From positions 186,001-250,000 of the forward strand of contig JABSSW010000030.1 in assembly GCA_018902385.1 (NCBI GenBank): 64,000 nucleotides of DNA, read 5' to 3'. The position numbers were made by a program, and so were the translations under genes. Source of the stretch: Physcia stellaris. Taxonomy: Eukaryota; Ascomycota; Lecanoromycetes; Caliciales; Physciaceae. The notes below the pieces were generated by a model. The model saw only the letters and a program-made list of their open reading frames with translations. It ran no database searches and had not been told where the DNA came from. The stretch's first letter is position 1. Every line of letters starts with the position of its first letter. Positions 13,003 through 64,000 of the stretch are shown here, piece by piece.

Positions 13003-13380
13003 GATCAGGTAGGAGTGGCTTGTTCAAATAATGAAGCGAGGGCTCCGAGGCTGGAGAGAGCAAGTAAACTGAATACATTTTCAGCAGTGTGTATCTACTA
13101 CCTTATCGTATTTAGGATTCCCGTTCCGATTCTCATCACACCACTCAGCCCCGGCACTTTGCTGAGTAAGCGTGATTCTCCCGCCAATGGCTTGGCGTCT
13201 ACACCGTCTGGGAAGGGAGTCGGGACGACCTTTTTCCCTGAACCCTGACCCGATGAGTATGGAAATATGTGATAGTAGTGTTAGTGTTCGTGTTGTTGCG
13301 TGTAATTGTACAGGAGCAAAAATTCAAAGCAAAATAGCGCGGAGCAGTCTAGTGACTAAGCAGCGCAAACATAAATATTA
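13003..13380. other. P450 promoter region, ends at the AT-rich boundary
   Basis: Normal-composition sequence upstream of the P450 gene. Composition changes abruptly at about 13380, where the inverted-repeat element starts. Confidence 0.5.
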
Positions 13381-13405
13381 GAAATCGTCAAAGTAGCGTT
13401 TTTTC

Positions 13406-13441
13406 GATCTCGCAGATCTCGCAGATCTCGCAGACCTCGCA
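13406..13441. repeat. 9-bp tandem repeat (GATCTCGCA x4)
   Basis: Four head-to-tail copies of GATCTCGCA, the last with one change, just inside the left end of the AT-rich island. Confidence 0.85.
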
Positions 13442-13790
13442 AGCAATAATTTTCGCATCTTAACGTGTTTGCAGAATAATTTCATCGAATCACAGTCGAC
13501 GTTAAATTCAGAATCTTAACGAACTCAACAAGTTTTACGAGTACTCGTAATGCTCGTAAATTAATCGATCGATCGAGATCGATTAAAGTTCGTTAACGAG
13601 TTTTTTAACTTCGTAGACTTTATCGCGTTTGACATCACATTTCAGCGCACAACAATACACGCACACGATAGAATAAATAATGTAAATATGATTCGAATTA
13701 TTCACAATATCATGTACATATCGTCATGTTGTGAACATACTACTTCGTACTGTTTTGATATTTTTGAATAAATTGTGACACGATTTTATT

Positions 13791-13880
13791 GTCGATTTCG
13801 TAAATCTGTGTTGAATTCAGAAAATGTCGCTAATTTGTCGAGTTTTCATCAAAATCATGAAAAATTCTGACAAAATGTCA
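13791..13880 (+). repeat. left arm of 90-bp inverted repeat
   Basis: Starts GTCGATTTCGTAAATCTGTG and pairs with the complement of 18235-18324 at about 84 of 91 positions. Differences are almost all transitions. Confidence 0.8.
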
Positions 13881-16800
13881 TAAATTTTTCTATTCTTCTA
13901 TGAAAGCCTTGTAATCATTCTATTGAAATTCAGTATATTTCGTTTAACTCGTGTTTTGATGATTGTTTTTCAAATTTGACGTTTTGACGTCGTCGTCGTT
14001 CATCATGTCGTCGATGTTTTTCACGATCATTCAAAACGAAATACGAAATCAAATTGATTTCGATCGTTTCATTTTTCAAATACAAACGTTCATCGATGTC
14101 AATCAAACACAAATCGATAAAATGAAAAAAAATTTGAAAAAATATGAAATCGTTGTCGTTTCGCTCTCGATACGAAAACGATTTAGAAAAATGATCGAAA
14201 AAATGAAAAACTTTTTGTTCGAATACATTAATTTTCATTCAATTAAATATTTAAACGAGATGTGCTGATATGTTTACAATGAATTTGACATCGTCGTCAA
14301 CGAATTCATTTTGTGTAAAATGTTGAAACGTCGAAAATGAACACACAAAAAAATGAAATTTTTTTTTTTTTACATCGTTTTTTTTGTTTTACAATTTTCA
14401 TTGAAATTGATTCGTTCAATAAACGTTTTTTCGTGTTTTACAACGAAATCAAAATTAACGCGATGTTTGACGTTTGCGATTTTGTGATTGAAAAATTCAT
14501 CAATTCATGTTTTTGAACGAAACGATCGTTTGCGAACGCATTGAAAATCGAAAATACGCATGAACACGACGAAATCGAAAAATCAACGTTGTTACGTTGT
14601 TCAAAAAAAATAAAAAATGATTTATATTTTTTGTTTTCACGTTGAAAAATTATATCGTTTGAACGATACATCATGATTTTATTACGCAAAAGATTTTCAA
14701 CGATTTCGTCAAACATCACGTTTTATTTTTCATTACATCGATCATTTATGAAAACAAAAATTTTGTATTGATTTTGAACAACGTTTCGATTCACAAGTTT
14801 GTAAAATTTCAAAAATGTGCATTGAAATCGACGTGAAATTGATTTTTTTATTTTTTTATTCATTTGATTACAATTCAATAAAGATTTCGTTCGCGATTTT
14901 CAAAAAATGAATCAAACGACACGATGATTTAGTCGAAAAATACGAATTTGCATTTGAAAATTTCGAACGATTTTTGCACGATGCAATATATGCACAAATT
15001 CAACGAAATAATTCAAACAATTTGTTTCGAATTTCAAACATCAATTTGTGAAAATTCAAAACATATGTACTAGTAAATTATTTAATAAAAAGAAAATCAA
15101 ATATGCGAACTTTTCGAATGTTCGAATTGTAAATTCTCATTGATGTTTTTTTTTGTGTCATCAAACGAATCATTTTCAAAATCAATATTCGCGTATTTCA
15201 AATTCTTCGAATGAAATGAAAATGAACGAAATTTATCATCGAATAAAAAAACAGTTTGAAAATTCGATTTTCGCAAATGTGAAAATTGAAAAATTTTTTT
15301 GATTGTTTTGAACATTCGTTGAGTAAAAAACGAAATTTGCAAATCGAATCACATCGATGAAAATTTCGAATTTGAAAAATTTTGTTCCATATATGATTTT
15401 AATGATGTCGACGACGAGTTTCGAATGACAAAAAATTTTAAATCAAAAATTTGTTAACGATAATGATTTCAATGATAATTATGATTTTTCATGCGAATGC
15501 GAAAAAATTTCGATTTTGAGATTTTGCGCGATTTTGCGATTGTATTTTACAAATATATTACAACGTTACAGTCAAAACATCAACGATTTCAACGTCAAAA
15601 ATTGAACGTTAAAATGATGATGTTTTGTTACACGTTTTAACGCTGTTTTGATTTTCGTTCACAACGAAAATCGCATGATCAAAAATGAAATAAATGCATT
15701 CATTTCGCATGCTGTCAAGCAAACTCGAATTTTCGATATTTTGTTTGAATTTCAATTCACGTTTTAATCAAATTTTTTCAAACGTTTTCGCATCAATGAC
15801 AAACTCGTCATCGATGTCAAATTTGATGTTTTGTTGAGTTCATCAAGTTTCGACGTTTTTTTTGATTTGTATTTGACGAAAATTGAAATCGTTTTCGATT
15901 AAAATTTCATTTGTCGTTCGATAAACATTTAATTCGCGTTCAAATTCAAAACAGCGATTTTTTTGAATTTTTCACTCGATGAAATTTTGTATTTGTTTTT
16001 CGAAATTTTTTTTCAACTTGATTGAATTGCTGAACGAATTTTGATAAACAAATTGAACGTCAAACAACGAAAACATGACTTTTGATCGTGAAATAAAAAA
16101 GTATATGACAATTTTGAAATTGTAAAGTTTGAAAAAATTGAAAATTTTTCGCGATGATTTCGTTTTCGTTTTTCGATTCGAAACGATGATTTGTTTCGTT
16201 TTCGTTTTTCGTTTCGAAACGATGATTTATTTCGATGACGACGACGTTTTTCATTGTTTCGATGATTTCTCGATGATTTATTTCGATGACGACGACGTTT
16301 TTCATTATTTCGATGATTTTTTACATTTTCATCGATATATCGTCGACTTGATTTACGTTTTGAATGACGTTTGTTATGATCATGACGAATATGCAATATC
16401 AATTTTTTCAATTTTTCTATTCGACGTTTTCATTGACGTTTATTTTTGACATGTAAATGATTCAAATCGTCAAATTCAATAGCGATTTTGCGTTCTAGTT
16501 TCGCGAATTTGATTTTTAATTTTTTCACATTGTTTAGCGTTTGTTGTTTCGATTTTTGCGTTTTATTCATTTTTTTGTGAATCGAGAATTCGATATAACG
16601 ATTCAATGTCGTGTTTTTTGACGAGTCGTCGATTTGATCAAATGATTTTTTATTGTTATAATCATTTGACGTTTTGCGTTTGAGTTTTTTTCTAATTTTT
16701 TTCGAAAATTTATTGATAATGAATTTATTTTTTACAATGACGTTTCGTCACTCGTTGAAATCAACAGAAATCAATTCGTAATGATGATTATTGTATACGT

Positions 16801-18234
16801 AACATTGATTTTTTTTTCAATTTTTGCACGATTTTTCAATACAATTGTATTTCGAAATGAATTGAATTTTGAAATCACTCGATTGCGTTTTTTTTTTGAT
16901 TCGATCGACATTTTTTTTTGCGATTTTTTCGATTTGTAATTGAATTTTCATTTGAACGATTGACATTTGCACGAGTACAAAAAAAAATTGTTGAGATTTT
17001 AATAGAATGTCGTTTTCATTTCTGTGTCATTTCAATACAGTCTGAACAGCAAATTTCTTTCTTTTTTGTTTCAATACAAGTTGCGACAGAAACAGAGTGT
17101 TTTATTCTATATAACGTTTAATCGTAATCGTCGTTTTTCATTTTTCGTTTGTCTAAATCATAATAGAAAAATTTCATCGTACAAATGATAAAATTGACGT
17201 TCGATATTGTCGACGTACTTTTTACTAATTGAAAAATCGTTTTGATTACACTCAAATAATTGAGAATTTCGTCATTTTTAATAGCACGAACGAAAATATT
17301 GTCATCAATTTTAATTTTTCGAAATAAACGACTCAGATGAAAATGTATTTAATATCGACGAGTTGTTCGTTTTCGATTTCACTATTCAATTAAATCATCG
17401 TTTTTTTCTTTGTGAACGAACAAACGTGAAAAATGTCTCGTCGTCATCGAAAATACATCAACGAAATCGTTTAAATTTTTTCTTTTTCGTTGTTTGAATT
17501 TTTTCGTTTTTTTTTTATTGATCAATTGCGCAATTCGCAATTGTTTTTGTTGTTTTGCAATTTGACGTCGAAAAACAAACTTTTTTTGATCGTTTTTTTG
17601 CGTTTTTTTTTTTTTGCTCGTTTTCGTTCGAAATTTTCGACGATGCGTTTGCAATAATCGTGTTTTTTTGTTCAACGATTTTCGCACAGACTTTTGTATA
17701 TCATTTTCGCAATCGTCGATATCGAAAAAAAAAAAAAATTTTCGATATCGCGAATTTCGATTTCGCGTTGATTTGTTTGAATTGCGATTTTTTTTTCGAC
17801 GATGTTTTTTTGACGACGAATTTCATTGTTTTTTGATTTTTGACAATTTTTTCGTTTTTTCGAATTTGTACGAAAGTTTGATTAGATGTTCGATTACGTT
17901 CTGTTATGACGACGAAACGAAAAAAGACAATAAAATTACAAAAAGCGACGAGAAAATATCAAAAAAATAAAAAATGTTCGAAATATTAAAAACAACAATA
18001 TCACAATCACGAAATCAAAATACGATTGCGCAAAAAATAAAAATGTAATATTGATGCAATTTCATTATATGCGTTCGTTTGATTTTTTTTTTGATGCATT
18101 ATGCATTAAAACAATAACACATCACGCGTTATTCGCGAATTGATCAATGAAAAAAAAATTTACATCAAAAATCACAATTAAACGAAATATATTGAGTTTC
18201 AATTGATTTGCAATTGATCGTGATTGACAATTCT

Positions 18235-18324
18235 GACATTTTGTCAGAATTTTTCATAATTTTGATGAGAAATTCGACAAATTAACGACATTTTTTGAAT
18301 TTAACACAGATTTACGAAATCGAC
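18235..18324 (-). repeat. right arm of 90-bp inverted repeat
   Basis: Reverse-complement partner of 13791-13880; the two arms lie 4.4 kb apart. Confidence 0.8.
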
Positions 18325-18624
18325 GATAACGTCTTCGCATAAAATTGAATCGAAACGAAAATTCATCAAAATTACTTTGACGATTTCTATTAAAAATCGT
18401 CAAATTTCTTTTTCGCAAATTGTTTTTTTACATTCTAGATGTACTATATGTATTACATGATTCATATGAAATCGTAAAATCGTGAGAATTTCGAAAACGA
18501 AAAATGTTGTGAACGTGTATGTGCTAAACGATTTATAATATAATAACAAAAATAATACGCTTTTGACGCAATAGATTGAAACGTTTTATTTTTTTTGTTT
18601 TCGAGACACGCGTTTGTTGTTGTT

Positions 18625-18629
18625 GTTGT
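18625..18629. repeat. target-site duplication, left (GTTGT)
   Basis: Five bases identical to 20957-20961, directly flanking the two outer ends of the LTR pair. Confidence 0.8.
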
Positions 18630-18812
18630 TGTAAAATGTCATGCGATGATATGAGTAACAACAGAATTCTAGATTGCAAAATTAACTATGAAAATCTGGC
18701 AGAAGCATATGTAAAAGATTTGATCATAACGAAATTCGAATTCGAATTTCGATGTGATAAGATAAAAGTTCAAACATCTATCAGAATTTCAACACATAGT
18801 ACGCTCGTCACA
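18630..18812 (-). repeat. LTR (3' LTR in element orientation)
   Basis: 183 bp, matches 20774-20956 with about 20 differences. This copy is the more strongly mutated of the two. Confidence 0.88.
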
Positions 18813-18838
18813 TTATTTCTCGTTTTCTTTCAGTTTCG
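18813..18838 (-). other. polypurine tract
   Basis: On the minus strand this is almost all A and G and abuts the 3' LTR, the expected place for plus-strand priming of an LTR element. Confidence 0.6.
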
Positions 18839-19024
18839 TTTCGAAGCGACTAATCATTTCTTTCACTTCTTCTTTTTCGTCGGTCGGCGATTCGAAAAGT
18901 GTCGATGACTAGAACGTGAATAGTCGAACAGATCATTGCGAAAGCCGAAATGATCGAAACAGATGCAACAAACGTGAAAATCTGAAGACGAAGATCGAAA
19001 AAACGACGAAAACGTAAATCGAAA

Positions 19025-20408
19025 TCATGCGAATGAAAATTTTGATTGCAAAAATGAAAATTTTGATTGCAACGAAATGTAAAAAATGTCTGACTTTTTA
19101 TATGATGAAATGATCGATTTTTCAGACAGAGCAGAGCGAATCGTTTTCGCAGACGTAAACTGCTGAAAATTTTTCGATTTTGAACTTTTCAAATCTTGAT
19201 TAATCGACGTTTTTTGATTGACTGCAGACAGAAAGTAGACGATGATTCGTGACTGATATGAAAAGCGTGATTGACGAGATGAACGAGTGTCGAAACGCTG
19301 CGAAGATGCAGAATCTTTTTGATGTTGCGATAAATCAAATGATTTGAATCTTTCATGAAACATGCGAATTAAGTCATCGATAGTGAGATAAGATTTCTGA
19401 TGTTCTGATACAGATGTTCGAAAAGATGTTCGAGAAAATGTTCGAGAAAATGTAAATGAACTGACTGATAATTTCTTCATCGATTTCGATGTGACATTGA
19501 GTGTCGCAATAGAAAAATGCGAACACTTTGATGATATTGATTCAGATATCGATGTAGATGTTGCAAAAAAAATCGGCGAAACAAGCGAAACTGATTTTTC
19601 ATGAATTTGAATGTGAATTCTGATGTAGAAAATCGAAAATTCGAATTGATATTCGATTTCTGAATATGTTGCTCGCGAATATGCTCGTGAAGTTTGTTTT
19701 TGAAATTGAAATTTTGTTCGCATTGCTTGCAAACGATTTTGAAACAAACGTTTTTTTGTTTGATATGTTTCAGAAATCGACTTAATGAAAAAAATTGAAC
19801 GAAACATTCGACGCACGAATGATATTGAAACGAAAAATATGAAATATGCGAATCAAATGTAATAAATGACTGATTCGATGTTTTCGATGCGAGTTCAAGC
19901 GAAATAGTAAAAAAGACACATCTTAGATCTTTGTCGAAATTCTGTATGATGATGAAACTTGACTGACTATTAAATCATGCGAAAGCAAAATTCCGAACGC
20001 ATTTGAACAACAGATCGAGCACATCTTGCTCTCGATATTGATGTTGAGTTTGCTGAAAATGTTGCAAAAAATCTATTATCTTGCTGTATAGATCGAACTT
20101 CAGAATATCGCATACTAATGTAGAATCGAAGATATCGATATCTGAGAAACTTGATGTTGACTTTGCGACTTCAATGATTTCAACTTCTGCTCGCTTTGCA
20201 GCTTTCTGCTCGGTCAATTCAGCTTGTTTCTGAACTTTTGCTCGGCCAATTCAGCTTGCTTTTGCCATTCTTGACTGACTAACTCGGTTTCTTGAATGTA
20301 TTGTGCAATTCGATGCCGAATAACTTCAAAACACTTGATTGATCGTTGATAATGCTGACGAGTTGTAAACGTTTCAGAGAATTCGCTGTCACAATATTGA
20401 CAATGCAT
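19025..20408 (-). pseudogene. gag-like region of the nested LTR element (fossil)
   Basis: Minus-strand remnants with a C2H2-like knuckle at the start (CQYCDSEFS, then an H..RS..C spacing), a coiled helical part, and a Ser/Arg/Gln-rich tail containing YLTIDDLIRMFHERF, a block I associate with gag-type proteins of Gypsy elements in filamentous ascomycetes. Broken in several places. Less mutated than the flanking DNA. Confidence 0.6.
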
Positions 20409-20773
20409 CGTGAAAACAAAAAAGAATAATCGATTCGCTAAGTAATTGAATATGATTCTGAAGAATTCTCGAACAAGAAAAATGATTTCGATACTGAAAA
20501 AATTTTGATGCTGTGACAGAATTTCTGATACAGCCGTTCTTCGATGATGTAATGAGATGAAATCTTATTTAGAATTCGCGTACCTCGACGAGGGTGTAGG
20601 ATAATGAGTAGAGCCGAAGATAGATAACTGAATGGGCGTTGAGGTTCGTTGATGATTTAGATACTGAGATCTGATCGACGAGCTTCAATGTTCAGTTCGT
20701 TGCCTTACTTACGGCTATGGTGAGGGCATGTACGAAGACATACCTCAATGAGTTTTGTAAGAGTCTAGAATAA

Positions 20774-20956
20774 TGTAAGGTGTCATGCAATGATATGAGT
20801 AAACAACAGAATTCTAGACTGCAGAACTAACTATGGGAATCTGGCAGAACATATGTAGAAAATTTGGTCATAGCGAAATCCGAACCCGAATTCCGATGTG
20901 ATAAGATAAGAGTTCAAACATTTATCAGAATCTCAACACATAGTACGCTCGTCACA
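20774..20956 (-). repeat. LTR (5' LTR in element orientation)
   Basis: 183 bp; keeps many CC, CT, AG and GG dinucleotides that are lost in the other LTR. Confidence 0.88.
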
Positions 20957-20961
20957 GTTGT
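20957..20961. repeat. target-site duplication, right (GTTGT)
   Basis: Matches 18625-18629. Confidence 0.8.
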
Positions 20962-22300
20962 ATCTCGTCGTCGTTATGTCTCGTCGAAATTCAAAAAAAC
21001 GACTTCGCAATGTTTTGTGATAACAATTTATACAAAATATTGTTGTCACAAATTTCGCGTTTTTTGTTACATTGCGTTGATTCGTTTTTATTACAATATT
21101 CGACAACAACGTTATTTGTTGTTTCGTTCTATCAATGTATTCAAATTGATTGAATTGTTGACGTTTTTTTTTGAGTTATTCAACACACGTTTTCGAAAAT
21201 TCGTTCGCATGAATCGCGAAATTTTCAAACAAATGTTTCAATTCATCGAGAATGATGTGATATTTTAAAATAATAATTATGTTTTTCAATCATTCGTTCA
21301 GCATCAATTAATCATTGCTTTTCATAAATTGAAACATGAAAAAAATGATGTTGATTTCACGAATTGTGTCAATTTTGAAATGTTTTCGAAAATCAAATTT
21401 TCATTTGCATCAAACGTGTGATTTTGATTTTATGCAAAAAAAAAAATTTTACGTCAAATGACTCAACGCGAAAAAACGAAAAATCGAAAATATGAAAAAT
21501 AACGCGCGTGCAAATTTTTTCGATTGTGTGAATAAAACAAACGACATTGACATCGTTTTGAATAAAAAATTCGATAATCAATACGACGACGAACATTTTT
21601 TCAATCGAAAAAAACGTTACGTCATGAATTTATTAATCGTTTGCGATTCGAAAAAAATGTTTATTTACATGTTCAATGAATGATTCAATTTTCAACACGA
21701 TGTTAAAGTTTTTGCGTTTTCAACATTCAATCGAAAATCAAAAGAATTTTTCGAAAGCAATCAATATTTTTTGATCGATAATGCGTATGTCAGCGTCAAT
21801 CATTTCGTCTTTTTTTACAAGAATTCGATTGTTTTTGTTCTAAACAACAAGCGATTCAATCGTAAACTTTTCAGTATTCGAATCGACATCGAGCACGCGT
21901 TTGATATGTTAAAGAATCGTTGACGAAATTTGATTGATTTTCGTCTTTTCTTGTACAACGAGAAGCAATATGAATACATGATTCAATGAATCATCGTTTG
22001 CGTGATTTTTCACAATATTCTTTTCGATTTGATCGACGTTTGAAACGTAAACGAGAATTGATGAATCGAAAAGAAAAAAAACGAACATGACGAGAATTTA
22101 TTGATAATTGCAGCGAAACAAACGCGAACAGACTTGAATAAAAAAGAAATCTTGAAGAATTTTGTACTTGAAATGAGATTCGAAATTTCTGTCATTCAAT
22201 AATTAGTTTCAATTTTGCGAGAAATAAATGAATTTTTATTTAGTAATTCAGTTTGTTTCTCTCGATTATTGATTTTTCATTTCAAATTTGACGATTTTGC

Positions 22301-24650
22301 AATCAGAATATCGATGTACGTCTGCTCATTTCGTTTTGATATTTTACAAGTCTGAATGCGTGATGAAGATTTCAGAAAGCGATTGAATCGTGTCAAAAAC
22401 ACGTCTTCAAAATTCAGAATTTCGTTTTATTGTTTCGCATTTGTTAATGAACAGACGCATTGTCGTATAAAGTGATGATTGAATTCAATGAAATCAAAAA
22501 TCGAATTTGTGAAGTTTCGAGAGGAGAAATTCAGACTCGAGAACGAACAATGAATACATTTCGCATTCTGTACAACTCGTGTATTTTACGACTAGTGCAT
22601 GTTTTGTTTCGCAAAAAGTGTGCAACATCATCATCAAAAAAAATGATGATGTTTTATTACACGTAATAGCGTTTTTTGACAGTAAATTCATACATCGCAG
22701 TTGATATTTCGTTTTTTTGCAAAATTCAAAGTTCAAATCAATAAATTCAATTCAACAACAGCGACATGTATCGTCACGTGTATTGAATCAAAGCGTTTGC
22801 AATTTATTGACTAGCTAGCTATATATGTAAAGACTGTATATCAGGAAATTGAAACAGATTAAACGAACGTGCAACGAGCAAAACGATAATGAAAGTACAA
22901 CAATAATGACAGTATTGAAAAAGTCGAAAGCAAATCTCAAACGCTCATTTTTGCAATGCAAAAATCATCAATTCGCAATAACACGTTTTTGTTTTGCAAG
23001 ACGATGTTTAGAAATCGTCAAAATTTTGACTATTCATAAAGAAATGCTCGAATGAATAGTGATTTTTTTTTTTGATTCAGCTTTTTGCTTATCTTTGTTC
23101 AGATTTTTGTTTTGCAAAATCGTCAATTGTATTTGCATTTGAAACATGCGTTCTTCATGCTGTTGATTTTGTCGCATTGTTTTTCTGTCGCGTTGCAGAA
23201 TTTCACGATCGAATTGCAAGCGACGTTTTTTGAATTCGTGTTTGTTTTGAGTCAAAGCAAATTCGATGCGTTTATTCTTCATTTTCATCAAAGCGTCGAC
23301 AACGAAACGCTGTTTGAAATTTTTTTTTTTTTGTTTCGCTTTTGATTCGTATCATTTTCGAGATCGTATGAATGAACACGTTTACTTTTCTTGATTTGAA
23401 CTTGTTTGAAAGATTTCGCATGAGCGAATTTTGCAAAAGTTTTCGCAAAGATCTTCGCAAAAGTTTTCGCAAATGCGAAAGATTTGAAAACAGAAATTTT
23501 GATGACTGTCGAATCAGCGAATTTTGCAAACATTTTGACAGAAAATAAAACGAAAGAAAAAATATTTTGAGTCAAGTTTTCAAAATTCGAGACATCGTCA
23601 AATGCGTAGCCTGTTAATCAAGTGAGTATTGAGATTTTTCGAACAAAGTGAACAGCAAATTTATTTAGAAGATTCGCGTCGAAAATTTCAAAACGAATCA
23701 ACATTTCGTCAATGTGAATATCGCGAGTTTTTTTTTTTTTTTTGCGAACGTTTTTTCGTTTCATCGTTAATTTTATCGTCGTTCAAAAGATTTTGAGTCA
23801 ATTCAACGACGAATTCAAAAAAAATTGCTCGAAAATTTGTTGATCAATTTTTTCAAAAATCACGTCATTTTCGACATCGATATCGTTGTTGTTTTGTTTT
23901 TCAACATTTTTGAAACAACGATTTGCAAATTTCGTCGATTCGATTGTTCAAATTCGAAAAAAAATCGATGTAACGTTCGATCGCTCGTTCATAATTTTTC
24001 GAATTCGTAATATCAAAGCATTTTCGTTACAATGATTGCTTTGATGATAAAAATTTCAACGATATTTTTGATCGATCATCGATTGATTGTGATCGTCAAA
24101 ATCAACGTTTCAATTCGTGAAATCGATTTTGTTTCGCATGTTTTTGAACATATTCATCATGTTAACGAGTTTTTCAACGAATTTTTGAGAAATGACAAAG
24201 AACATTATCGCAATCAAATTCAAATCATCGAAATATTTTTTCGCGTTTTCGATTTTGACGTTTTTCAAATAATAAATAACATTCAAACATTTGTTCGAAA
24301 CAAAATTTTTCGATTGAATCGTTTCGCGATTGTTGCAACGATTTTTGAAAATCATTTGACGCGAGCGTTTTGAATGAAAAAATTTGAGTTTGTGAAATTT
24401 CAATAACGATTTGAGTGAATTTTTTGATACGAGACATGACGAAACAACAATGCAAATACGACGATTCTAATGAAAATATCAACGAGTTGACGTTTCGATG
24501 CAATTATCAAAATTTGAATCAATACAAAAGACAAAACAAATCGCTCATCATTTACGAAATGAATCATGATTGTGATTTCGATTAAAACAACAACAACAAC
24601 GCGAGAAGCGAGAAACAACGCGAGAAACGAGATTTCGTTTTTCACGCTAG
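22301..24650 (-). mobile_element. AT-rich transposon remnant with a possible Myb/SANT-like partner protein
   Basis: Minus-strand fragments at about 23575-23034 encode a long basic and Gln/Glu/Lys-rich helix (for example FKKRRLQFDREILQRDRK and QQHEERMFQMQIQLTILQNK) preceded by a Lys/Arg stretch with YDLENDTNQKRNKKKK. This is the kind of C-terminal coiled coil found in Myb/SANT-like proteins that accompany PIF/Harbinger transposases, so the stretch may be the second gene of the same element or of a sibling. The DNA-binding half (expected about 24400-23900) is too mutated to confirm. Many interruptions. Low confidence on family. Confidence 0.35.
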
Positions 24651-24653
24651 TGA

Positions 24654-24801
24654 TTTGTGAACCATATGGGTTTTCAAATAAATTAATTGAAATGAATTCG
24701 TCTGATTTATTTTATTGTTTTTGTAGATTATATGATACGTAATTGCGACAATTTCTAGCGTGGAAAGAGTGTTTCACCCCTCTGTTTGTAGACCATATGG
24801 G
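24654..24801. repeat. 18-bp direct repeats at the right edge of the AT-rich island
   Basis: TTTGTGAACCATATGGGT (24654-24671) and TTTGTAGACCATATGGGT (24784-24801) flank about 110 bp at the place where composition returns to normal. Could mark the edge of an element. Confidence 0.4.
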
Positions 24802-25496
24802 TATTGTAGAAGGTCGAAAAAAGAGATCTGAAAATCCCTATTGACAGCCAAGTCGTTTTGCGACAGGAGGCTTGCGTGCAGCGGTTTCACCTTCTGTGAC
24901 CTTCTGAAACACCCATGCTAAGCATATTAACTAAGGAGGCATAGCGTATCTATATCATCGCATACCCGCCGAGTTCCTACAAGCGCATAGTCAGTTGTAT
25001 GGACATTCCAGTATTGTTGCCTGTATCGAGCTTGATTTGTCGGGTGAGTGAAGGCGGCGAAGCCAAGCCATGAAGAAGCGAGACGGCGATTACAGCGAGC
25101 AAGGGACGACAGGGGCTAATCGAAGCTCCATGGACTTGAAGCGTGAGCGCACTGATGATGGAGACATCCCGAGGTAACATGTAAGAAAAAAGTAGCATCT
25201 ACTCCTTGTCGTGTCATCTTACAGCATTGAGAACAGACAAATCACTTCTTCCTATTTCTTCGTTCCTTTCTCTTTGCCATAGTAGCTCCTCAAATTCGGC
25301 TTGGCTTTAGGTGTTCCTGATTGTCGCGTTTGCCTTACAAGTTTACGGGTTTTGCTTCCCGAATTTGGGAACCGTTTCATTGCCCTTGGATTCACCTAAA
25401 AGGGTCGTTATCGGTTAAACGGACGAAAGATGCCGATGCCGAAACGCGCCTTCCACGATTAACAACACCTCCTCATCTCCTTAAGACGACGCTATC
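24802..25496. other. intergenic, promoter side of the C2H2 protein gene
   Basis: Normal composition. Pyrimidine-rich tract around 25240-25290 and the 5' leader of the gene that starts at 25497. No separate gene seen. Confidence 0.5.
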
Positions 25497-57299: not shown

Positions 57300-58942
57300 T
57301 CATAATAGGGATTTTCAGATCACTTTTCGAAATAGTTGAAGATTTGCAACTGAACTTCCTGAAGTGATGTAAGATGTGAATGTTGATGTGAAACTTCTCG
57401 AACAAAATGTGAAAAATGTGAAAATTGATCGATTGAGTATCACATCATCGATCGTCTAATTGATATTCGTTTTAATTGTTTATTGTAAAAATGACATCAT
57501 TTTGCATCGTGAAATCGTTAATTTTCGATTTTAACATTTCGTCGATTTTCTTTTTTTTTTGAATCAATTTTCGTTCTTTTGTTGAGTTTCATAATTTCGT
57601 GATGTTTCGAATCAACGATTGTAAACGTTACGTAAAAAATTTGTAAATTTTGTAATTAATCAATGCGATCATCAAAAATATTACAAATTTCGAAATCGTT
57701 GAACGTTTGATCTTTGTTTCGACATTTGAAAAGCAACGATATATCGAATCAAAACGAGTGTTTATCGACAAATCGAATTGAATTTCAATTATTTTATTCA
57801 TTTATTCGAAAACACGTTTTTCAATATGAATCAAAATGAACAAATACACGTTTGAAAAATGACTGAAATATTCAACAACGATTTCATATTTCATAACGAA
57901 TCGACGTGCGAGCAAACTTCTTTGAATGAACAATTACATTTGATTTTATTCAAATTCGATAATGCAAACGAAAAATAAATTTCGTGAAATTCGCGATTAC
58001 GTGAGATGTATCGAAAAATCACGTTTACAATTGCATTCGACGAATAATTTTGATTTTTTCAATTTGAAAAAACGTTATATTACTTGATCGAACGAGAAAG
58101 AAAAAAACACGAAAACATGAAAAATGACAATCATGTCGATTTTATTGATTGTGTAAAAAAATCGATAACATCGATATCATATTGAATCAAAAATCGTTTG
58201 ACGAATATTTCGACGAAATGTTTTGAAACAAAAAGAAAAAATACGTCATGAATTTATGTGCAATTTGCGATTTCTCGAAAAATTCACATATATATACACG
58301 AATTGATCGAATTCGCAACACGATTCGCGTGTTTTCAAATCAACTCATATATTCAAACATTCAGACGAATATTTTTTCGAAAATCAATATTTGATGAACG
58401 ATTCGATTTATTTAACAACGTCGCAAATGATCACATCGTATATTGTTTTCGAACGAAAAATTTCAAAAACGCGCGTTTCAACAAACTATTGTTTAGCATT
58501 CGTATCGATATAGAACACGTCTTCGAAATGTTGAAAAAACGTTGAATCAACTTGACGAATTTGAAATTGACTTTACGAAATCGAAAACAATATACGTATG
58601 TTTGTCAATAAATCGTTGTTTGCACGATTTTGCACAATATTTTTTGAAATTGAACGATACAAAAAAAAAAAAAAACGACTGATGAAACGAAAACGAGAAA
58701 AAAAAAACATGATCAAGAATTGATGAAATTCAACAACATTCAAAAAAAATTGAATTTAAAAAAGCGTGAACATTTGAAAGTCATCGTGTTGAAAACGAAA
58801 AAAACATACGATTAAAACAAATGCGATCGAAAATAATCACAGTTTTATCATACAAAACATTGCATGTTTTTGTATATTTTGTCAAAAACGTAAATGCGAA
58901 ATTCGATGTTTAAACGTTGAAATGCGAAAAACGATACATTTT
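57300..58942 (+). mobile_element. PIF/Harbinger-like DNA transposon relic, copy 2
   Basis: AT-rich, CpT/CpC-depleted block beginning about 300 bp upstream of the TUDOR/AT-hook gene. Between about 58130 and 58680 it aligns with copy 1: DCVKKSITSISY-like remnants of the DGT region, KKKYVMNLCAICDF, and IDIEHVFEMLKKR followed by a HNIF block. Shares with copy 1 the same order of the conserved blocks but many differences. Interrupted by several stops and frame changes. It ends where the LTR at 58943 begins, so the Gypsy element probably inserted into it. Confidence 0.6.
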
Positions 58943-59168
58943 TGTGAAATGTCATGCGTTGATTGAACTAATACATAATTACACGAGAATTTCTAAGTGA
59001 GAAGCAAATACATGAGAATCTGTAAAAACATATGTAAAAAATTAGATCGTTTGAATGCGTCAAGGCGAATTTCGATCTTAACATCCGATATGATAAGATA
59101 AAAATGTTAATTCTAATGATTGATCAGATGTTGATTTCAGATGTTGAATTCGATGCACGCTCGTCACA
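58943..59168 (-). repeat. 3' LTR of the Gypsy element
   Basis: About 226 bp, starting TGTGAAATGTCATGCG and ending GCACGCTCGTCACA on the plus strand, alignable with the 183-bp LTRs at 18630 and 20774 at both ends and over the TGATAAGATAAAA block. A purine tract (minus strand) abuts it at 59169-59195. Confidence 0.75.
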
Positions 59169-62100
59169 TTACTTTTCGTCTTTTTTCAGTTTCGTTTCGA
59201 AGCGACTAATTGATTTTTTTTTTTTGAACGTTTTGCGCGATGTAAATATGCCGTTAAATGACGTTGAATTGATTTGTCGTCGAGACAAAAAAATAAACGC
59301 GAAGCGTCGCGAAATAAATTTCGTCAACGAAATAAATTCGTCGAGATTTTGAAAACATTCACATGATCATATCTTAAAATAAACAGTTCGAACATGTTAG
59401 TAAAATCGTCATTACAATTTTTAATGCATTGAAATTTTCGAGTGTGCGAGAGTCGATGTGTACATTGCATGCGATAAAACGTGAATGCAATGAATGTTTT
59501 GAAAGATGATCAATTTATGCAATTTGTTAGAAGTAATTTCGACGAACATTAGTAAACAAATCATTGAGAATTCGATTTCGCGTATCGACAATTTTGAGAA
59601 TTTTTGCAACATCAGATTGATATCACGAGACGAGCAGTTTGATCAAATTGATGAAATTTCTGTTATCACAGATAACACGTCGACGTTATCGCATATAAAC
59701 AACAGCTGATTCGTACAATGCATTCAGCGAAATATGCATGTATTAAATTTTTCGAAAAGCGAGTATCTTGTACGAATTTTACAGATAATTTCGCGTGTCA
59801 TTAGTAAGCAATTGAGAATTTTGTTGACGAACTTGTAAATGTTCGAATTTTCTGCTATTTATTCATATCAATGCATGATGATATTTTACATTATCATTTA
59901 TTGTTCAATAAAATCTGACGACAATCTCTGAAAATGTTTTTGACACGATTCAATTTTTCATGCGACGTAAATTCTGACTGTAAATAACGCAAAGTGATAA
60001 TGAAACGAATGACAACGAAAAGAAAAAAAGATTATTAACGTCAATCTAAAAATGAATTGTAACGAATTCGGTGACAATCTTTTGATCGATCATAAACAGT
60101 AAAGTTCACGATCTAATCATTTCGCAAAACAGATTCTATTGTTTTTGAATTTGTTTCGTGAAAAATATCGACGATATTTTGAGCATTTTGAAATTCATCG
60201 TCGTCGACATAGTATCAGATGCGATCGTGAGAATTTCAACTCGATCATTTACAACGATATTGAAGACGATGATAATGATATCGAAATTGCAATATGTCGT
60301 CGAATTTTCATTCGAACGTTTCATTTGCGATAACGAGTTTCGAAAAATCGTTGTGTTGTTTTTTCAACGAATCGTTGAAATTTTTTTTTAGCAATCAGAA
60401 ATGAAAAATTGAATGAATGTGCATGTCATCGAACAGTTTCAACTCGTAAACAATGTTTCGTTTTTTGACAACGAGATATGAATTCAATTTTTGTCATTCA
60501 GTTTGTCAAATGAACGAGCTGTTTTGATGTGACGACGATTTAGTCACACATAATTTTTTATCTCAAAATTGATCGAATAGCGAAATTTGTTGATTCGAAT
60601 CGTCATTTTTTGTTTGACGTTAGCAACATTGATTTTGATTTATTCGATAATGCGATTCATTTTTTCGACGATGAATTCGTTTTGCTTGATCAATAGACGT
60701 TTTTTTTAGTGATTTCGTAATCATTTAGATTCGAATCAAAAATCATTCGAGAATGATAATTTTTATTGATGAAAAACGAAATGAGATTTGTGATTGCGAA
60801 AACGTCATTGTTGTCAGCGAATTTCATGATGTCGATTCATTCAATTTAATCGTTTTGACGATAATTGCAATACAAACGTAAACGAATTTCAATGTTTTGA
60901 TTAATTCGCTCGATTTGATCATTCGTTTGAAATTGAAACGTCGTGAACAATTTACATTTGATTTTTAAACGTTTGCAAAAAACTTTTCAAACGCGATTTA
61001 CAAATTGATCATCTCGATTCGAAACGATAAAAAAGATAAATTATGCGTGCGAAATACGTAATGAAACAATATTTTGACGCAAATCTCGATTGTCAAGTCG
61101 TCATCATCGATCACACAAAAACATAATGTCGTTTTTGATTAATCGATCGATAATAGTGCAAATAATGTTGTTTTTTTTGAATTCAAATAATTCGATTATG
61201 AAGTTTATCGAGATATTCATTCATCGTTGACTAGAAATTGACAATGATGTTAGTAATTCATGACGATCATCGTGTGAAACTTTAAATCGTTGACATTTGT
61301 GACAGTTACGAATGTAACGTTTGATAAATAGTCGCATACTAAATCAATAGTAGTAGCGTTTAATGAATTTTTCAATATGATTCATGTTCGAATGAGCACA
61401 GAAAAATTGATCGTGAGCATCGCGAATTATTTCAATCATGAAATTTAAACGATCTGATATTCATAGATTTTCGTTTTTGAAGAAAACGTCGTCTCGATTT
61501 GAACATTCTTGTAAATTTATTTTTTCGTTGATGATTTGTTCATCGATCAAAATTTGACGATGATTAATGCAATTCTCATTTTTTCGATTGATTTGCATTA
61601 TCCGTTCGTACAAATCGTTTTGAGCGTCAATCGGACACAATTGCAATCGAGAAAACGACAACAGAATTTGTTCTCTATAGAGTTTTCGTTCGTCGTCATC
61701 GACAAAACGAAATTCAAACATTCGAATCAAAGCGTTCGTTTTAACATTTTTGATTTCGAATTGATATTGAATTTTGATGTTGTAATCGATCAAAATTTCG
61801 ATTCAACGTATTTGACGAAAAATGAATTTTTTGTTCGTCATGAAAATTTTCAAATTTTTATAATCGATGTAGATTTCGACGAATTCGTCGATGTTTTCAA
61901 ATTTTGATTTTCAATGTTTCAAACATCGAATAATGATCAGAAGTTTCTTGTCATATATTTCGTAATTGCATTCGACAAAAATCATCTTTTTGTTGAAAAA
62001 AGTCATCGAATGAAACATTTCGTCGTCGTCGTATTGAGATAGAATCTCATTTAAACATCAATTTGAGAAATCGATTTTCAAAATAATTTTACGATTACGA

Positions 62101-62309
62101 TCGTAATGTCGAAAAATTGAAATTTCGATTATTTATTTTTTCAAAATTTCGAATGTTTCGTTGACAAATTCGATTCATTCGAAATTAATTTTTTTTTTGA
62201 TCATTCGAGTCAAAAACTTGACGAATTTGAAAAATACTTTGATGAAACGACGATAAAAATTGCAAAAATTTACAAAAATTTGCATTTCTTTAATGCAAAT
62301 TGAACGAAT

Positions 62310-62813
62310 TCAATTGACGATATTTTGAACTTTCTTGAAATTCATTCGTAAGTTTTCTGTTGATAATATGACGCTCAAAAACGAGATTTTCGTTTGAAAG
62401 AATTCGCATTTTTTGATATCAATTTGAAGTTCGATCTTTTTTAATTTTTGAAATATTTGAATGAAATGTCGTTCATGTTCTCGTCGAATTTTGTTGTAAA
62501 TAAAAATGTCATTTAAATATATTTGACAAAAATGATTAATGTATTCGAACAGCAAATCGTTCATGTAATGTTGTCAATTCGCCGAACCATTGATCAGCCC
62601 GAAAGACAGTACATGATACTTGTAAATGCCTAACGAACATATAAAAATAATCAGATCTTCGCTTTGTGAATCCATTCGAAATTTATTGAAAATCGATATG
62701 ATGTCCAATTTGAATAGAAACTTGCAATCTATTACTCGGGCCAAAGTCTCTTCAATCAGCGATATTGAATAACTGTTGCGCTTGATTATGGCGTTCAGTT
62801 TTCGATAATTCAC
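62310..62813 (-). pseudogene. Gypsy reverse-transcriptase remnant
   Basis: Family blocks readable on the minus strand: MNYRKLNAIIKRNSYSISLI, LFKLDIISIFNKFRM, FGLINGSAN, then YLNDIFIYNKIRREHERH with the second catalytic block altered, and CEFFQTKISFLSVILSTENL. Clear Ty3/Gypsy type. Broken. Confidence 0.88.
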
Positions 62814-64000
62814 ACACAGACGAAACTGTCCGTTCGACTTGACAGCGAATAAAATGAACGATGCGTATGATGCTTTGTTTGAATTGATAAATTTCTTTTG
62901 AAAATTGTCGTGAAAATATTTTGAAAAATTTCAAACTTTTTAGACGATAGAGAATACACTCGACTTCGTGATAATTGAATCGTGTTTTTCGTCAATTCGA
63001 TTTTGTGATCGTAAAATTTATGAAAAAATAATTTATTTGTTTTTTTGAAATTGAATACGCTTTCGAATCGCTTAAAAAAATCAAAAATTTTTCGTTTCAA
63101 TTTTTCAACGATTGCTTTCATGATTTTAAAAATTTTTTTGAAATCGATATCGAAATCGAATTTTATTTTGATTAGATTTTCTTGAACGTCGTCAATGATT
63201 TCGTTCAGTTTTTTCATGATTAATGAGAACGTTTTGATTTTTTTTTTTTTTTTTTTCGATTTTGTCAAAAATTGATAAACAGCGACGTCGATAAAAACGA
63301 CATTCAAAAACGTTTCGAAATCAAAATTTTGTTCGTCGTTTTCATTATCGAAAGTCGAAATTTTGAATCGTCTATTAAATCGTCGAGCAGATTTTTTAAC
63401 TAAATTCGATTTTCGAACAAAAATCTTCACGAAAATAAACTGTTGAAAATTTCGTATGATTTTAATTCGTTTTTTTTCTTTCGAAAACTTAGCAAAAAAA
63501 TATTTTTTATCAATTTTCTCGATAGCATATCGAAAATTAAAATTCAATATGTTTTTGAAAAAAAATTTCTCGTCGTTCTCGAAATTCTCGACGATAAAAA
63601 AAAAAAATTTAATCTTGAACGAAAATGAAAATGATCGTCTTTGAATAATTCGATATTTTTGAAAATTTATCGATATCGACTGCTTGATCGATGATGTTGA
63701 CGATGAGAAATATATCTCTTTAAAAAAGATTGATCGTTCGCTTTTAGTTCTCAAAATTTTGAACGTTTCGAAATGAAAACAACGATCGAGTTTGAAAATA
63801 ATTTTATCGTTCTTCATATTCAAAATGACTTCGTGAGCGTTCATTCAAAACTTATTCAGTATCAGCGAATGAATTTCAATTCTGATTATGAACATGAGAG
63901 TCGTGATTTTTGAGTGATTCTGCACGATAAGTGTAAAATAAATGACATGAATAATGAACTTAATTTCTCGATCGTCGAATTCATTGACGAGTTTCGATCG

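Follow-up and report, generated by a model that had tools for sequence, protein, structure and literature searches.

Two AT-rich islands in a 64,000-nucleotide stretch of the genome of the lichen fungus Physcia stellaris raise the question of which process strips cytosines from repeated DNA in this organism and by what rule it selects them. The stretch (G000:C30:186001-250000, called the window below) lies within a 43.97-Mb assembly that was made from an axenic culture grown from ascospores, is built on Nanopore reads with two rounds of Illumina polishing and has a GC content of 43.3% (PMC7513301; here and below, papers are cited from the portions available). No analysis of repeat-induced point mutation (RIP) was found in the available portions of that genome paper. 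We consider the islands to be transposon-derived repeats mutated by RIP, with a cytosine followed by a pyrimidine (CpY) as the target and with CpC hit more often than CpT and both far more often than CpA and CpG, which stay near background (probability about 0.8).

The initial annotation had described CpT and CpC, together with ApG and GpG, as depleted in island 1, CpA, TpG and CpG as common there, and the same pattern as present in a second island at 57.3-64.0 kb. Dinucleotide counts bear out this description. At positions 13381-24650, where the GC content is 30%, the observed/expected ratios are 0.08 for CC, 0.08 for GG, 0.40 for CT and 0.49 for AG, with 1.22 for CA, 1.20 for TG, 2.72 for CG and 0.38 for TA. 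The corresponding values at 57301-64000 are 0.10 (CC), 0.05 (GG), 0.37 (CT), 0.44 (AG), 1.13 (CA), 1.22 (TG) and 2.94 (CG). The gene-rich parts of the window give 0.84-1.08 for all four CpN dinucleotides, and compared with them CpC and CpT in the islands lie far from expectation. The stronger wording, that CpT is nearly absent, is true of the cores only: the core of island 1 (14-17 kb) holds only 4-10 CT per kb, but the 19-21 kb part is more mildly mutated (31 and 62 CT per kb) and thereby raises the mean of the island. In the island cores, with A, G or T as the 5′ base, the retained fraction C/(C+T) lies at 0.00-0.02 for NCC and at 0.09-0.13 for NCT, with 0.53-0.66 for NCA and 0.51-0.55 for NCG; gene-rich DNA shows 0.54-0.66 for NCA and 0.40-0.49 for NCG. 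Core values are lower in the rows with a 5′ C because that C is itself a target.

The signature extends beyond the window. Twenty 10-kb stretches of our choosing, two of them adjoining the window, were combined with the window into 528 segments of 500 bp, of which 182 with a GC content below 36% form the AT-rich class and 318 the normal class. AT-rich stretches in the 20 samples show the same loss of CpC and CpT, with CpA and CpG near gene level, and a combined count of CpY and RpG (R being a purine) of at least 70 is reached in none of the 182 AT-rich segments, gene-rich segments having about 120. In the eight segments with GC below 20%, retention before C and T drops to 0.00-0.01, and retention before A/G moves from 0.60/0.44 to 0.35/0.37, so that a slow loss at these sites is conceivable. 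The indices in common use seek a gain of TpA and a loss of CpA and TpG, and TpA is depleted here (TpA/ApT of 0.40-0.41 in both islands), so standard RIP tests miss the signature: no AT-rich segment (0/182) passes the classical indices, and 11/318 normal segments do. The CpA preference and index values that are typical of RIP, although not defining in all fungi, are therefore lacking. Two of the sampled stretches stand out. L015 (G000:C5:600001-610000) contains about four CpC, CpT, GpG and ApG in its whole 10 kb and is perhaps a centromere, and L008 (G000:C2:1-10000), at a contig end, has a GC content as low as 13%, under most other islands.

The target rule can be read from aligned transposon copies. 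As reference we used L032 (G000:C5:1164501-1168500), an unmutated Ty3/Gypsy-type element with RVT_1, RNase H and integrase zinc-binding domains, for which 38 scored candidates out of 294 yielded 40 further match rows across the genome. Ten of these 40 rows were aligned to it, comprising the eight best and two partial rows whose identity is intermediate; one of the eight best (L035, G000:C12:58291-62291) is unmutated and the other seven are mutated. In the seven mutated copies C-to-T change affects 3414/3788 CpC and 2405/3503 CpT, against 193/3698 CpA and 108/3556 CpG, and 5819 of the 6120 C>T/G>A changes fall at CpY. The same copies carry 214 T>C plus A>G changes and 183 transversions, giving the excess of C-to-T change in repeated DNA that is expected of RIP. 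The unmutated sister L035 differs from L032 at 19/546 CC, 20/505 CT, 15/531 CA and 13/510 CG. The proposed C-to-T process with a following-pyrimidine context that spares CpA and CpG is thus confirmed, most changes do not occur at CpA, and the proposal is refined in that CpC ranks above CpT. Classical CpA-directed RIP is out, CpA being changed at 5.2% in the seven mutated copies and at 2.8% in the unmutated pair.

The degree of mutation is graded between copies. In the least mutated one, L036, 408/539 CpC (0.76) and 217/496 CpT (0.44) are changed, with 18/530 CpA, 11/509 CpG and few other changes (31 T>C/A>G and 28 transversions). The two partial copies give.88/.91 for CC,.65/.66 for CT,.07/.06 for CA and.04/.03 for CG, and in a DDE_1 family (L031 compared with L043) the counts are 198/234 CC, 171/269 CT, 16/268 CA and 18/274 CG. 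Some further observations concern these elements. In L036-L038 and L042, cytosines preceding AC show slightly more change (6/91 to 13/91) than those preceding other AN. L032 and L035 are 95% alike and stand unmutated amid many heavily mutated relatives. A search of viral contigs for relatives of the L032-type element gave no match.

The 3′ base decides which cytosine is hit and the 5′ base matters little, the mutated fraction ranging over the four 5′ neighbours from 0.88 to 0.92 at CpC and from 0.62 to 0.74 at CpT. Enzymes of the AID/APOBEC type read the 5′ neighbour, and ultraviolet light would also hit TpC before A or G; both kinds of damage are disfavoured by the small 5′ effect, and TCA and TCG are changed at only 68/1095 and 29/1125 positions, which argues further against ultraviolet light. 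An AID/APOBEC-like or other cytosine deaminase acting on exposed single strands in repeats could produce strand-specific tracts such as those of L036, described next, but given the dominance of the 3′ base we grant it very little chance.

Changes in L036 are clustered by strand, as in RIP. Between bases 250 and 1000, 76/100 CpY are mutated on the minus strand (CpC 56/62, CpT 20/38) and 7/92 on the plus strand (CpC 5/48, CpT 2/44), and a windowed chi-square for heterogeneity along the plus strand gives chi2 138 (p=5e-22). A strand test based on runs found no excess in any of four copies, one of them L036. In the nine other mutated copies the less-hit strand carries more mutation than in L036; L043 varies along both of its strands, being lowest in the first 250 bases and less mutated at one end on the minus strand, and in L056 one of the strands reaches p=0.03. 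Tracts like those of L036 are the trace expected of one or a few strand-wise rounds, as known from Neurospora. Slow deamination of 5-methylcytosine at CpY in heterochromatin would likewise yield C-to-T change in silenced DNA with no active mutator, but the strand difference in L036 together with its few other changes points to abrupt strand-wise hits, making slow decay very unlikely.

Twelve short many-copy elements (L044-L055) were fetched as a test for a length threshold. Their inverted ends lie about 100 bases apart, and one end matches the start of L031, beside the DDE_1 gene. They are CpY-rich (GC 51-58%) and apparently unmutated; with a mean identity of 73% they may also be too dissimilar to each other, so that their state need not point to a length threshold. 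Their C/T differences over all pairs, uncorrected for site numbers, favour CC and CT, with 301 CC, 295 CT, 100 CG and 59 CA.

At the island borders inside the window, mutation also keeps to shared homology, as RIP demands. The islands and their parts are as follows; coordinates are those of the window.

13381..24740, no strand assigned: AT-rich island 1, depleted of CpC/CpT and retaining CpA/CpG, from dinucleotide and CpY counts.
13377..13673, no strand assigned: dispersed short repeat bounding island 1 on the left, with nine longer matches at 73-83% identity.
13787..17000 (17000 being the query end), no strand assigned: mutated repeat copy, with genome matches at 69-95% identity.
18626..20959, no strand assigned: member of a high-copy family, more mildly mutated than the rest of island 1 (40 of 335 candidates scored).
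23001..24842 (23001 being the query start), no strand assigned: repeat bounding island 1 on the right, 89% identical to C5:1069207-1071040.
57304..64000, no strand assigned: AT-rich island 2, with the same signature by dinucleotide counts, running past the window end.
62367..62840 (G000:C30:248367-248840), minus strand: reverse transcriptase remnant with one in-frame TGA, from an RVT_1 match.

Island 2 ends about 4.5 kb past the window end (L021), and its homology, 93% to C7:430105-431301, was traced from 57304 to 58500. Repeat homology was searched along part of the islands, borders included. The CpY count drops at about 13250-13450 and about 57400 and recovers at about 24750, and homology to other copies starts at 13377 and 57304 and stops at 24842, so that the island edge lies within about 130 bases of the repeat edge at all three borders inside the window (3/3). 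A misreading of modified bases by Nanopore sequencing, or an error of polishing, deserves mention for an assembly built on such reads, but Illumina polishing was done twice, and conversion nearly reaches completion, differs in degree from copy to copy and stops at repeat edges; like ultraviolet damage, such an artefact is hardly credible.

The rule leaves its mark on reading frames. When hits are limited to C with a following C or T, stop codons can arise solely by TGG to TGA, since CAA, CAG, CGA and the middle G of TGG are spared. The open frame of L032 has 13 TGG and 55 CAA/CAG/CGA codons, and of the 84 new stops that the seven mutated copies carry in this frame, 81 are TGG>TGA, one is TGG>TAG and two are CAA>TAA; the unmutated sister has zero. 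Genome-wide, 150 RVT_1 matches (150 of 527 candidates scored) contain 250 TGA, 33 TAA and 3 TAG, ten of the 150 being free of stops, and ten DDE_1 matches contain 44 TGA, 3 TAA and 0 TAG (summed by eye, with two rows overlapping slightly). Since sites are shared between copies, these stop counts lack independence.

RIP depends on rid or dim-2 and takes place after fertilisation but before meiosis. In P. stellaris, too, the process presumably acts before meiosis, with a methyltransferase of the RID/Masc1 type as the probable mutator, and the genome offers candidates. A six-frame search with PF00145 gave four matches in three genes, namely a DIM-2 homologue (L002) and two RID/Masc1-like loci, RIDa (L001) and RIDb (L003), so that methyltransferases of both types sought by the initial annotation are present. 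Motif VI reads EET and EQT in RIDa and RIDb, and EQT or EET instead of ENV is the mark of Masc1/RID proteins (PMC6709928). RIDa appears intact, reading through two introns placed by eye to the KQIGNAVPP motif; its interval between motifs VIII and IX is about 70 residues by a count made by eye with the two introns assumed, the Masc1/RID target recognition domain having about 80. RIDb looks intact as well, and numerous relatives of it occur in lichen fungi.

A tree of 40 rows was built from 46 chosen sequences, six without a readable domain, DIM-2 among them, having been dropped; it covers sequences from Aspergillus, Xylona and Xylariales but neither N. crassa RID nor Masc1, and its deep forks are weak. 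The clade that holds RIDa has 100/100 support and a long stem (0.84), its one named member among the matches listed being Heterodermia, and RIDb groups with other lichen sequences from its search. Nine more distant RIDa relatives (P0150-P0158) have 44-51% identity, and two of them fall in the RIDa clade. Seven residues past the catalytic cysteine of the PCQ motif, Gln is found in 26/26 readable RIDa-clade proteins (of 29) and in the sole readable one of the nine more distant relatives. At this position the RIDb search yields His in 119/119 readable proteins, out of 120 that were assigned by search and are only partly represented in the tree, and other fungal-type matches have His in 46/49 readable cases (of 68). 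Aligned to HhaI, the position lies in the stretch after the catalytic cysteine, which belongs to the loop closing over the DNA.

This divergence, together with the clade-specific change from His to Gln near the catalytic cysteine, makes RIDa the best candidate enzyme and, on sequence grounds, the likeliest carrier of the changed target rule. It is conceivable, and we put it forward tentatively, that RIDa is a RID paralogue in which recognition of the 3′ base switched from A to pyrimidine through changes beside the catalytic cysteine, and which took over genome defence in Physcia and probably in its Physciaceae kin. RIDb, a RID of the ordinary kind, would in that case leave CpA unmutated in P. 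stellaris. RIDb might itself be the mutator, with the CpY rule owed to a cofactor or to another part of the protein; it looks intact, and RIP in Neurospora needs RID. Against this, RIDb bears no special mark, its motif IV DAHT being common to 87/119 readable matches of its search. The relatives of RIDb may make RIP of the CpA type; Endocarpon pusillum, a lichen fungus of another order whose RID may be of a different type, has a classical TpA/ApT of 1.47 (PMC3897900). We regard this as improbable.

Several points weigh against RIP with a CpY target and RIDa as its enzyme. The change at CpA reaches 7% in some copies, and retention at CpA and CpG is lower in segments below 25% GC, so that weak targeting of CpR is conceivable. 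Strand tracts are plain in only 1/10 mutated copies; their lack in the other nine is expected after several rounds, yet is no proof of them. The homology search covered island 1 outside 17000-18400 and 21100-23000, and a small part of island 2. That L032 and L035 are unmutated in a culture derived from ascospores means that the process is leaky or that these copies are recent arrivals. RIDa is perhaps the enzyme, a candidate role read from the divergence of its sequence. Lastly, a preference for CpT is reported for Neurospora DIM-2 as well (PMC13297926).

This CpT preference in methylation keeps DIM-2 a serious rival: guided by heterochromatin, the homologue L002 could do the mutating, its preference for non-CG methylation at CpT having widened to CpC. 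According to a review, old heterochromatin repeats need DIM-2 for RIP (PMC13297926). L002 is plainly homologous to a DNA methyltransferase whose structure is known, matching 9bap/9baq (entry name generic) over residues 220-905 of 1009 with 608 bits for 9bap and an E-value of 2e-181; we assume 9bap to be N. crassa DIM-2. However, CpC exceeds CpT even in L036, and this copy lacks the CpA phase that a start by a CpA-type RID would leave. In addition, the DIM-2 route in Neurospora is said to target single-copy DNA flanked by repeats (PMC12543289), whereas the island borders keep close to the repeats here. We therefore hold it to be unlikely that L002 is the mutator, although less so than RIDb.

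RIP by a RID-type enzyme with a CpY target resembles the N. crassa process in its C-to-T change in repeats, its strand-biased clusters (91.9% of RIP clusters in N. crassa are on one strand; PMC7296669) and the presence of RID-like and DIM-2-like genes, but the order of targets is nearly opposite, being CpA>CpT>CpG>CpC in N. crassa (PMC5496416). Trichoderma reesei shares C-to-T change on repeats, with CpA and CpG about equal and followed by CpT>CpC (PMC5496416). A kingdom-wide survey describes a preference for CpA as common to RIP-like defences (PMC12543289). CpT as a target is already known: RIPCAL found CpT to make a large contribution among Tad1 copies (PMC2621366), CpT to TpT is the dominant form in alignments of known RIP-capable fungi (PMC7882544), and CpT occurs beside CpA in other fungi, being predominant in Magnaporthe and one Botrytis strain (PMC4352252). 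It is also listed as predominant in several Colletotrichum truncatum families, and RID motif 29 has been proposed to account for CpT in Magnaporthe, Botrytis and Sclerotinia (PMC4352252, PMC6180176, PMC10998396). Magnaporthe, Botrytis, Sclerotinia, C. truncatum and Anisogramma share CpT with P. stellaris, but CpA is also a target there, and TpA/ApT is 0.93-1.68 in C. truncatum and 1.14 on average in Anisogramma, well above the P. stellaris islands. CpC as the leading target is not reported for these five in the available portions of the literature searched. The CpG signatures of basidiomycetes and Tuber share a non-CpA context, but CpG is spared in P. stellaris (PMC4352252). Among lichen fungi, Cladonia rangiformis and E. 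pusillum have AT-rich repeat compartments or repeats labelled as RIP (PMC12542154, PMC3897900); those of E. pusillum pass the classical indices (1.47 / 0.70), unlike those of P. stellaris (PMC3897900), and the dinucleotide context in C. rangiformis was not found in the available part of PMC12542154. A RIP that prefers CpC and spares CpA was likewise not found described in the accessible portions of the literature searched. What is unusual in P. stellaris is the purity of the rule, the lead of CpC and the lack of targeting at CpA.

A CpY rule changes the damage done to genes, with nearly all stops arising from TGG to TGA and almost none from CAA, CAG or CGA. In vitro activity of RID proteins is given as not found, and the route of mutation as open (PMC13297926); a pair of RID-like proteins, of which one has diverged in its catalytic loop, combined with so sharp a rule offers a handle on what sets the target. 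If RIDa did undergo the proposed switch, the choice of RIP target would be encoded in the RID enzyme itself and able to evolve, and fungi with such enzymes would be scored as free of RIP by the indices in use.

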